Assembly (NCBI GenBank): GCA_963921825.1
Contig: OY997594.1
Location: forward strand, 3,601,001-3,665,000
Origin: Erodium maritimum
Taxonomy: Eukaryota; Streptophyta; Magnoliopsida; Geraniales; Geraniaceae
DNA: 64,000 nt
Reading direction: 5' to 3'
Shown here: positions 15,024 through 17,941 of the stretch, piece after piece
Numbering within the stretch: the first letter of the stretch is position 1
How the letters are laid out: every line of letters begins with the position of its first letter
Program-made: the position numbers and the translations under genes
The notes under the pieces: generated by a model
Databases searched by the model: none
What the model was told of the DNA's origin: nothing
What the model saw: the letters and a program-made list of their open reading frames with translations, nothing else

Positions 15024-17941
15024 TCATAGATCCACAATGCCATTTATAAATGAATCGAGACTAGTTTCAGACGATCCATCCTTCGCAACAGCACTCCGAC
15101 ACACCATCCGAAGATCCATACTTCTCTTCCTCATCTCTCGTCCCTCCTGACTCCTTAATTCCATAACCCTTTGCACAAGCTCCGCAACTTCCTCTCTGCT
15201 ACTCACCTCACCTACTTCGTACTTCTTCAACCGCAGCCCAACCTTCCAGTCTTCAACAATCATCTTACTGTTAAGATCCTGATCCGCAATCATCGGGAAC
15301 GTAACAAAAGGCACTCCAGCATACAAACCCTCCACAACAGAGCTCCAACCACAATGTGTCAAAAACCCACCAACCGAAGAGTGAGATAGCACCCTCAACT
15401 GCTCACACCACGGCACCACCAAACACGTGTCACTGCCCGCCTCCCGAAGCCTCTGAGCATTGCCTCTGGCAAAATAACCTTAAAACGGTGAATTCTTTGT
15501 AAACTAATCGTTTTTAATGAATTCTCGATTTTACCCTTAATGACAGTTATCTGGTCGGTTGGGTCATATCCCGATCTGATAAAGTCATTAAGGGTAAAAA
15601 CGTAATTTCACAACAAACAGAAAAGTAGATTGGCCGATACCAGAGTGTTTTAAATGAAGGCTATTTTGTAAAGTAACATTTCTTTAATGAATTTCCGATT
15701 TTATCCTTACTGAAAGTTATCTGATCGGTTGGGTCTTATCCCTTATCAGGTATGACCATTAAGGGTAAAAACGTAATTTCACAACAAATAGAAAAGAAAG
15801 TTGTCTGTTTTGCAAAGAATTTAATGAATTTACGATTTTGCCCTTAATAAAAGTTCTATGACCGGTTGGGTTTGGTCCCCGCTCGGATATAGTTATTAAG
15901 GATAAAAACGTAATTTCACAATAAAAAGAAAATAAGGTTAGCCGGTGAGAGCGTGTTTCAAATGGAGGCTATTTTGCAAACTTACCCTCTAACAACCCAC
16001 AGGAACCGAACACTGGCGATGCGCAGACCGGTCGCGATCTCATCCGTTTGGGCGGTCGAGATCGACTGGTGACTTCCGAATGATATATAGATGACGGAAT
16101 CCGGCGGCTGCCGGTCCAAGAACCGGAATACATCTTGCTCGGGCTCGGGACCGGGGGAGATGTTCAAGTTGAAGTGAGGTATGGTGGGGCCGACAGTGTG
16201 GACCGGGAAGGGGAAGACCGGAGCCAGAGCGGCGACTGCATCGGGTTCGAGTTCGTATACGGAGGATAACAAGAGGTATTGAGCCTTAGAGACCGATGTG
16301 AACTGTTCAAGGAGTTGGTGCATGATATGTGGCCCCTTTTCACCTAACATCATTTGTGGAAGGTCAACTATCTTTGTGGGGGGAACTCCCGGAAGGTAGT
16401 CCACTATTTCTTCTCCCTTTTCTTCTTTCACCTCAATCAATCAAAAGCAAGAATTAAGATTTAATCTTTGTTAAGATAAACTAACTAGAAAAGTTGTTTA
16501 ATAATCAAAACACACAGTCATCTTATTATTAGTCACACAAAACACGATTTTCGTTGAATCGTATCGACACAAACAATTTTATTTCCGGTAGAAACACATT
16601 GCCACCTTGTTTTTTCCTAAAAAAAACAACTCATTTACCATCAAAGGTGATTGCGTGTTTTTGCAGAAAGAAAAATCAAAACGTCAGTATGATTTCACGA
16701 AAACCCGTCATTTTTGTATAAATAAATGAGCTGGTTTTCTAGTTGGCATCAGAAGTTGGTTCTTGTAAACACGCATCAATAATAGTTTGTCGTTTCAAAA
16801 AAAAAATCTTACTATTTTTAAAATAAAAAAATATTTTTCTACTTAATCCATATGGGTTTAATGGACACTCCAACTCTTTTATCATTTTATTTCATTAAGT
16901 TATAAACATATTAGTCCGTAAAAATGTCAAAAATTATTTCCGATCGATGAATTTGATATTGTTTTTAGGGGTAACTTAACTTCAATACCCTAAATATTTC
17001 ATATTTAATTTAGAGTACCCTAAACCTTTCTTTGTGTCACCTCAGTACCCTAAATCGTCATTAATACATTTAGAGTACCTTAATTTTTTTTGTCACCTAA
17101 GTACCCTAAACTTTCATTAATTTTATTTTAGTACTCATTGTTAACTTTCTATATGATTTTTTATCAAAAAAAGTAAAATGACCATATTACTCTTCACTAA
17201 CAACTAAGTTTAGGGTAAACTTAACGGTGAGTACGAAAATAAAATTAATAAAAGTTTAGGCAACTGAAGTGACAAAAAAAGATTTAGGATGTTCTAAACG
17301 AATTATTGATAATTTAAAATATCGATGTGATACAGAAAAAGATTCACAACATTTTAAATAAAATATAAAAAATTTAGAAGAGTATTTATCCCAAATGTAA
17401 TTATAAATCTTTAACTCAAATAGGGTAGAGGCTAACCTCGGAGATTCACCGGAAAATGCCCGTTCCGGGCGAAGAGACGAAAATGGTAGAAAAACGAGAA
17501 CATGGAGGAGGACATGGTCCAGAAAGATGCCACCGGAATATTCCTCCGGTTCCCAACTCGGACGGCCCAACTCAAAAAAGTATCGGCCACGACAACCGTC
17601 GGCGGCGGCTCAAGCAGCTGAGTATCCAGAAGCCGCTCGAACGGAGCTTCCATCTTCGTGCGGACAGCTTCCAAGAACCCGGCCATGTCGGCGGCGCGGA
17701 CCAGTTCGGAGGGGACAACGTTGGGGATGGAGACGAATCGTAGGTTGTCGGGTTTGGGGTCGGAGCCGATGAAGCCGAGCCACTCCTCCGTGAGGACGAC
17801 GGTTACGATGACGTGGCTTCGGGCCTTGACGGCGAGGACCTTGCAGAAATTGAGCATGGGGTTGATGTGGCCTCGGCCCGGGTACGGCATCGCCACCACG
17901 TGTCGGGTCCGGGTCGGGTCGACGGCACCGGAGGGATCCAT
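15024..17941 (-). CDS. UGT87A: UGT87A-type UDP-glycosyltransferase, copy A
   Basis: Cytosolic family-1 glycosyltransferase that moves sugar from a UDP-sugar to small molecules; the acceptor is unknown. Exons 17437-17941, 15986-16424 and 15466 minus one (15024-15465) join in frame to give 461 aa. The catalytic His is in [13 protein letters not shown] (His25), with the partner Asp in VADTFLSWA (Asp120). The C-terminal PSPG box starts WCEQLRVLSHSSVGGFLTHC and ends at DQ. Blocks such as [16 protein letters not shown] and [14 protein letters not shown] are typical of UGT87A. The first intron is at the usual UGT87 place. The second (15466-15985) consists of repeat DNA and looks newly gained. The PSPG box reads HCGWSS where the family and copy B have HCGWNS. 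No stop or frameshift. Confidence 0.92.
15466..15985. mobile_element. Repeat-derived intron 2 of UGT copy A
   Basis: The whole intron is three tandem cores of a dispersed repeat, at about 15512-15620, 15680-15790 and 15820-15930. Each core contains TTTTACCCTTAATGA and, inverted, TCATTAAGGGTAAAA. The intron ends carry inverted GCAAAATAACCTT / AGGCTATTTTGC motifs. AGAGG flanks both sides. Related elements lie at 25796-25930, 55013-55475, 56280-56590 and 56895-57600. Confidence 0.7.
16965..17395. mobile_element. Foldback element in UGT copy A intron 1
   Basis: Segments with 'agtaccctaaa' and 'attaattttattttagtac' at 17020-17150 recur in inverted form at 17215-17300. The arms are imperfect and the ends are not sharply defined. 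No coding capacity. Confidence 0.5.

Follow-up and report, generated by a model that had tools for sequence, protein, structure and literature searches.

A putative intron gained from a transposon-like insertion in a tandem pair of UGT87-like genes of Erodium maritimum

The second intron of two UGT87-like genes of Erodium maritimum is, judged from the sequence, probably a spliceosomal intron that was gained from a transposon-like insertion, a reading to which we give a probability of about 0.6. The window analysed is a stretch of 64,000 nt (GCA_963921825.1, OY997594.1, 3,601,001-3,665,000, forward strand), in which genes with multicopper oxidase, mitochondrial carrier and LOB domains were identified by Pfam, and was judged from these genes to be plant DNA. 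The two UGT genes, copies A and B, form a tandem pair, and both lie on the minus strand. In the spliced model, copy A consists of exon 1 (17437..17941), intron 1 (16422..17436), exon 2 (15986..16421), intron 2 (15466..15985) and exon 3 up to the stop codon (15024..15465), and copy B of exon 1 (22293..22797), intron 1 (21351..22292), exon 2 (20909..21350), intron 2 (19994..20908) and exon 3 up to the stop codon (19546..19993). The spliced proteins have 460 (A) and 464 (B) residues without any internal stop. Intron 2 is in phase 2 and interrupts codon 314; its length is 520 nt in copy A and 915 nt in copy B, or 544 nt when an element nested in the latter is subtracted.

The spliced protein of copy A, the one copy on which the Pfam search was run, contains a UDPGT domain (E 2.5e-21), and its relatives of solved structure are glycosyltransferases, including chains of UGT74AN1 and UGT74F2. 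We assume that both copies belong to UGT87 (group J), following a sequence-only reading of the same DNA; the group J features that they carry, the UDPGT domain and a conserved phase-1 intron, are common to other UGT groups. A third UGT copy lacking intron 2 was searched for across the 64-kb window and none was found. Viral and prokaryote sequence collections, in which plant DNA would hardly be expected, likewise yielded no match to UGT87 or to the repeat of intron 2. Intron 1 is in phase 1 in both copies and follows residue 168 in copy A, and its proposed location at the UGT87 position agrees with published maps, which in the passages available describe the oldest UGT intron as a phase-1 intron located at 150-200 aligned residues (PMC9498546, PMC5789830) and report a conserved intron at this place in group J (PMC3412749, PMC5360731, PMC7542425, PMC10742590). 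The further claim that UGT genes usually have none or one intron holds for most genes, namely 154 of 168 in peach (PMC5360731) and 133 of 145 in pomelo (PMC7542425), but among the three pomelo genes of group J, one has two introns (PMC7542425). This pomelo gene may fit a different explanation, in which an older intron already occupied the site, was invaded by repeats and lost its original sequence through deletions, apart from minimal splice signals, so that repeat DNA now seems to fill it. We regard such an origin as possible but doubtful; among the points against it, the map passages of the four papers on group J name no conserved second intron (PMC3412749, PMC5360731, PMC7542425, PMC10742590).

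Both copies of intron 2 are largely repeat-derived. With the two UGT loci masked and window matches accepted at E<=1e-3, 64% of intron 2 in copy A and 56% in copy B is covered by sequence that recurs elsewhere in the window, compared to 0% for intron 1 of either copy and for exons 1-3 of copy A. Among 20 shuffled versions of each sequence, the highest coverage of intron 2 was 0 in A and 0.067 in B, while intron 1 of copy A reached 0.257 in a single shuffle. The remainder of intron 2 in A is mostly made up of internal repeat units, the interior consisting of three related units, and about half of the uncovered part in B is the inside of the nested 362-nt element. Intron 2 had been described as entirely repeat DNA in both copies, which is too strong for copy B, where a stretch of about 75 nt close to the 5' border had no match elsewhere in the window even at E 0.01. 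The GC content is 0.34 (A) and 0.32 (B) in intron 2 versus 0.49-0.61 in the exons. Exon duplication was also considered as the origin of intron 2 and rejected, as tblastn of both proteins (E<=10) gave no match inside either copy.

The repeat filling intron 2 appears to be mobile, as indicated by inverted ends and one exact target duplication, and can be described as a putative MITE-like element with an end of about GGGAAATTTGYAAAATARCC, possibly Mutator-like. Three other family members lie on the plus strand of the window: E2 (56275..56582), E1 (approximately 55005..55466), the first part of which is repeated, and the distant copy E3 (approximately 25733..25962). Terminal inverted repeats are present on E1 and E2, the ends being aligned by eye and unscored against shuffles. 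Mutator-like MITEs generate target duplications of 9 bp, and E2 is flanked by an exact 9-bp CATCGAAAA (9/9, P 0.0015), making a Mutator-like family possible, whereas the best 9-base duplications of E1 (7/9, P 0.57) and E3 (7/9, P 0.42) are not significant, so that the label is provisional for a family known here from few copies in the 64-kb window, where no transposase was seen. The unrelated nested MITE-like element of copy B (20186..20547, minus strand), with ends GGGTTAATTACATTCA, is likewise flanked by an exact 9-bp TAAAATTAG (9/9, P 0.013). Parts of this nested element match around 38.9-39.3 kb of the window.

Intron 2 reads GTAAGTTTGCAAAATAGCC...GGTTATTTTGCCAG from end to end in copy A and GTAAGTTTGTAAAATAGCC...GGTTATTTTGCTAG in copy B. 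The inverted GCAAAATA-type ends previously noted at both borders were recovered in both copies, with the 3'-side end shortened. The R-end of the element in copy A (GGGTAAGTTTGCAAAATAGCC..., 15950..15987, minus strand) contains the predicted donor, and the 5' end of intron 2 was matched to the R-end of E2 with a score reached in 0/1000 shuffles for either copy, to that of E1 in 1/1000 (A) and 0/1000 (B), and to that of E3 in 18/1000 (A) and 378/1000 (B). For the 3' side compared to the L-ends, the corresponding values were 3/1000 (A) and 27/1000 (B) for E2, 74/1000 and 479/1000 for E1, and 8/1000 and 22/1000 for E3, and the two ends of intron 2 compared to each other gave 15/1000 in A and 221/1000 in B, the latter not significant. 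Element end and intron border coincide on the 5' side; on the 3' side the element is short by about 10 bp, since the L-end (15466..15480 in A, minus strand) breaks off at GGTTATTTTGC, the outer part of the inverted repeat being absent in both copies, while the L-ends of E1 and E2 run about 10 bp further. Under the insertion reading, these bases would have been lost.

The same borders bear on the older-intron explanation. The shortened 3' side fits erosion, and the BLAST homology of the R-end of copy A to E2 (56580-56491) starts at intron base 3, so the GT of intron 2 could be old. As a point against the insertion reading, the R-ends of the other members read GGGAAATTTG (E1), GAGAAATTTG (E2) and GGGAAAATTGG (E3), none with GT at this place, and hence the donor of intron 2 differs from the usual end of the family. 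In line with an older intron, E1 and E2 themselves sit, as judged by eye, in introns of genes that we take to be polygalacturonase-like, away from the splice sites. On the other hand, each splice site coincides with or adjoins a repeat end in A as well as in B, and a direct repeat flanking the intron reaches into exon 2, both being points against an older intron. Several copies of the family are found at 55004-57605 among exons of presumably polygalacturonase-like genes, again away from splice sites by eye.

AGAGG flanks intron 2 on each side in both copies, as had been observed, and the direct repeat extends beyond this motif. In copy A, the left member (TTGTTAGAGG, 15986..15995, minus strand) forms the end of exon 2 and the right member (TTGCCAGAGG, 15463..15472, minus strand) comprises the intron end and three exon bases, including the acceptor AG; 8 of 10 bases are identical (shuffle P 0.021). 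In copy B, the members TTTCTAGAGG (20909..20918, minus strand) and TTGCTAGAGG (19991..20000, minus strand) agree at 9/10 bases (P 0.003), a level reached by 49 of 19216 random pairs of places within both genes. At 9 bases the P values were 0.086 (A) and 0.019 (B). No comparable direct repeat was found across intron 1, where the best matches were 4/10 (A) and 5/10 (B). The sequence-only reading had called the duplication provisional on account of its overlap with the family's own end. The direct repeat, longer than was noted then, overlaps the inverted repeat and the splice site: TTGC of the right member admits two readings, inverted repeat or target copy, and the former leaves an independent duplication of 5-7 bp that is partly fixed by the splice site. 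With TTGC shared by the inverted repeat and AG required for splicing, we rate the direct repeat as moderate evidence. The short AGAGG repeat would also fit an origin in which an exonic segment carrying AGG or AGGT was duplicated in tandem and repeats entered the new intron later, the route to which most events (188) are assigned among the Table 1 rows available from PMC3443670 and by which an intron gain is described in the passages on potato (PMC4974935), but with much of intron 2 belonging to the repeat family, this origin seems extremely improbable.

In line with the earlier proposal, the predicted donor lies within the element's own end: in both copies it reads GTAAGT (GG^GTAAGT), matching the consensus at 8/9 positions, and the acceptors read CCAG (A) and CTAG (B). 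Up to 60 nt from the borders, the frame is restored by 19 GT-AG pairs in A and by 11 in B; the chosen donor is the best among them and is contained in three pairs per copy. The alternative acceptors, at +15 and +33 in A and at +15 and +21 in B, would cost coding residues, so the chosen model retains most protein while other models are possible. Deletion of everything from one AGAGG to the other does leave an open frame reading VRGN (A) or SRGD (B), as stated before, but this join differs from the splice join by exactly three bases, and the in-frame status of one thus fixes that of the other, so that the two are not independent.

At the intron-2 junction the predicted proteins read R-G-G-N/D. 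The earlier proposal that the AG of the right AGAGG serves as acceptor and adds one Gly codon stands as far as the AG is concerned, which lies inside the right repeat member. In contrast, the best five solved chains among those listed, all named 'Glycosyltransferase', align here without a gap, their gap being further on, and hence do not show the added residue. Other UGT87 sequences appear to be mostly one residue shorter at the junction, which would fit an added Gly. The candidate codon lies 19 residues before the PSPG box, which we take to open at W, residue 333. UGT87 sequences with W-V-A-R-G are known, and on this basis AGA may once have been preceded by GCT (Ala), where A now has GTT and B TCT; this codon may survive in the right member of B, GCTAGAGG. 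In that case, the present right border would result from the loss of about 15 bp lying between two TTGC repeats, an idea that we keep although it is not proven.

Comparison of A and B indicates that exons 2 and 3 are under purifying selection. For both exons together dN was 0.104 and dS 0.371, a ratio of 0.28 over 291 codons (0.228 for exon 2 and 0.350 for exon 3), and both indels are multiples of three. In a neutral simulation with substitutions only, at 0.145 per site per copy, 1 of 2000 runs left both copies without a stop, and the mean number of stops was 8.9. It is therefore likely that the exons flanking intron 2 have served as a single reading frame ever since the gene was duplicated, which would imply that intron 2 is removed from the RNA. 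Had the insertion instead broken the gene, A and B would be pseudogenes in which no splicing takes place; the open frames, the in-frame indels, the dN/dS ratio, and the near-consensus donor and AG acceptor of both copies make this very unlikely.

The two copies of intron 2 share a 5' arm (87.5% identical over 40 nt, distance 0.137) and a 3' arm (79.3% over 92 aligned nt, distance 0.242), and their divergence is below the synonymous divergence of exons 2 and 3, which fits a single insertion predating the duplication. In the sequence of events that we propose, an ancestral UGT87 gene would have received a MITE-like element within a coding exon, at W-V-A/V-R-G. The element's end would have become the 5' splice site GG^GTAAGT, with the 3' splice site YAG^AGG located in the target copy at the far side. 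Splicing would then have removed the AT-rich insert, possibly with the addition of one glycine codon, and after this single gain and the tandem duplication, internal repeats would have arisen in A and a second, nested MITE would have entered B. The original suggestion that a repeat landed in coding DNA is favored by the repeat-derived sequence, the placement of donor and acceptor, the presence of the conserved UGT intron elsewhere in the gene and the selected open frames; the shortened right end and the ambiguity of TTGC for the duplication weaken it.

Intron gains by transposon insertion have reportedly been described by Giroux in 1994 for maize Ds and by Iwamoto in 1998 for plant catalases. 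Table 1 of PMC3443670 lists such gains for Oryza, Drosophila, Oikopleura and Zea. Transposon-made introns have thus been recorded in maize and rice, and other eukaryotes have them as Introners (PMC9860276). Intron 2 resembles the Zea and Oryza gains in that mobile DNA in a plant gene is removed by the spliceosome, here as predicted from sequence, and differs from them in involving a MITE-like family and a UGT87-like gene and in having persisted across a tandem duplication while under purifying selection (PMC3443670). Element end and target would divide the splice-site roles in the same way as in Introners whose donor lies in the element and whose acceptor is co-opted, but those are described without terminal inverted repeats, and intron 2 represents a single locus in 64 kb; codons of the insertion may also remain in the transcript after splicing, as in Aureococcus, where four amino acids are added, compared to at most one candidate codon here (PMC9860276). 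It is very unlikely that we are dealing with an Introner-like family in a land plant, with an end giving the donor, a target copy giving the acceptor and further introns made by the same family; if true, it would be the first according to the passages of a survey that reports no Introners in land plants (PMC9860276). Among the literature matches listed, no title named a transposon-born intron in a UGT gene, which is weak evidence of absence. Introns traceable to their birth are few, and if confirmed, intron 2 would name the element, the target, the origins of the splice sites and the protein change, would allow its later evolution to be followed in two diverged copies, and would serve as a test case for the rarity of transposon-made introns in land plants.

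Exon 1 and its surroundings differ from the rest of the gene pair, with 94% identity between A and B over 556 nt (17402-17956 and 22257-22812) and a dS of 0.089 versus 0.31-0.44 in exons 2 and 3, suggesting that gene conversion has probably occurred around exon 1. Intron 1 of copy A contains another MITE-like hairpin at 17085-17280, a 64-nt inverted repeat with arms that are 86% complementary and 68 nt apart. Finally, the single match of the Rfam and tRNA scans was a tRNA-Gly (GCC) at 8203-8273 on the minus strand, near the multicopper-oxidase gene.
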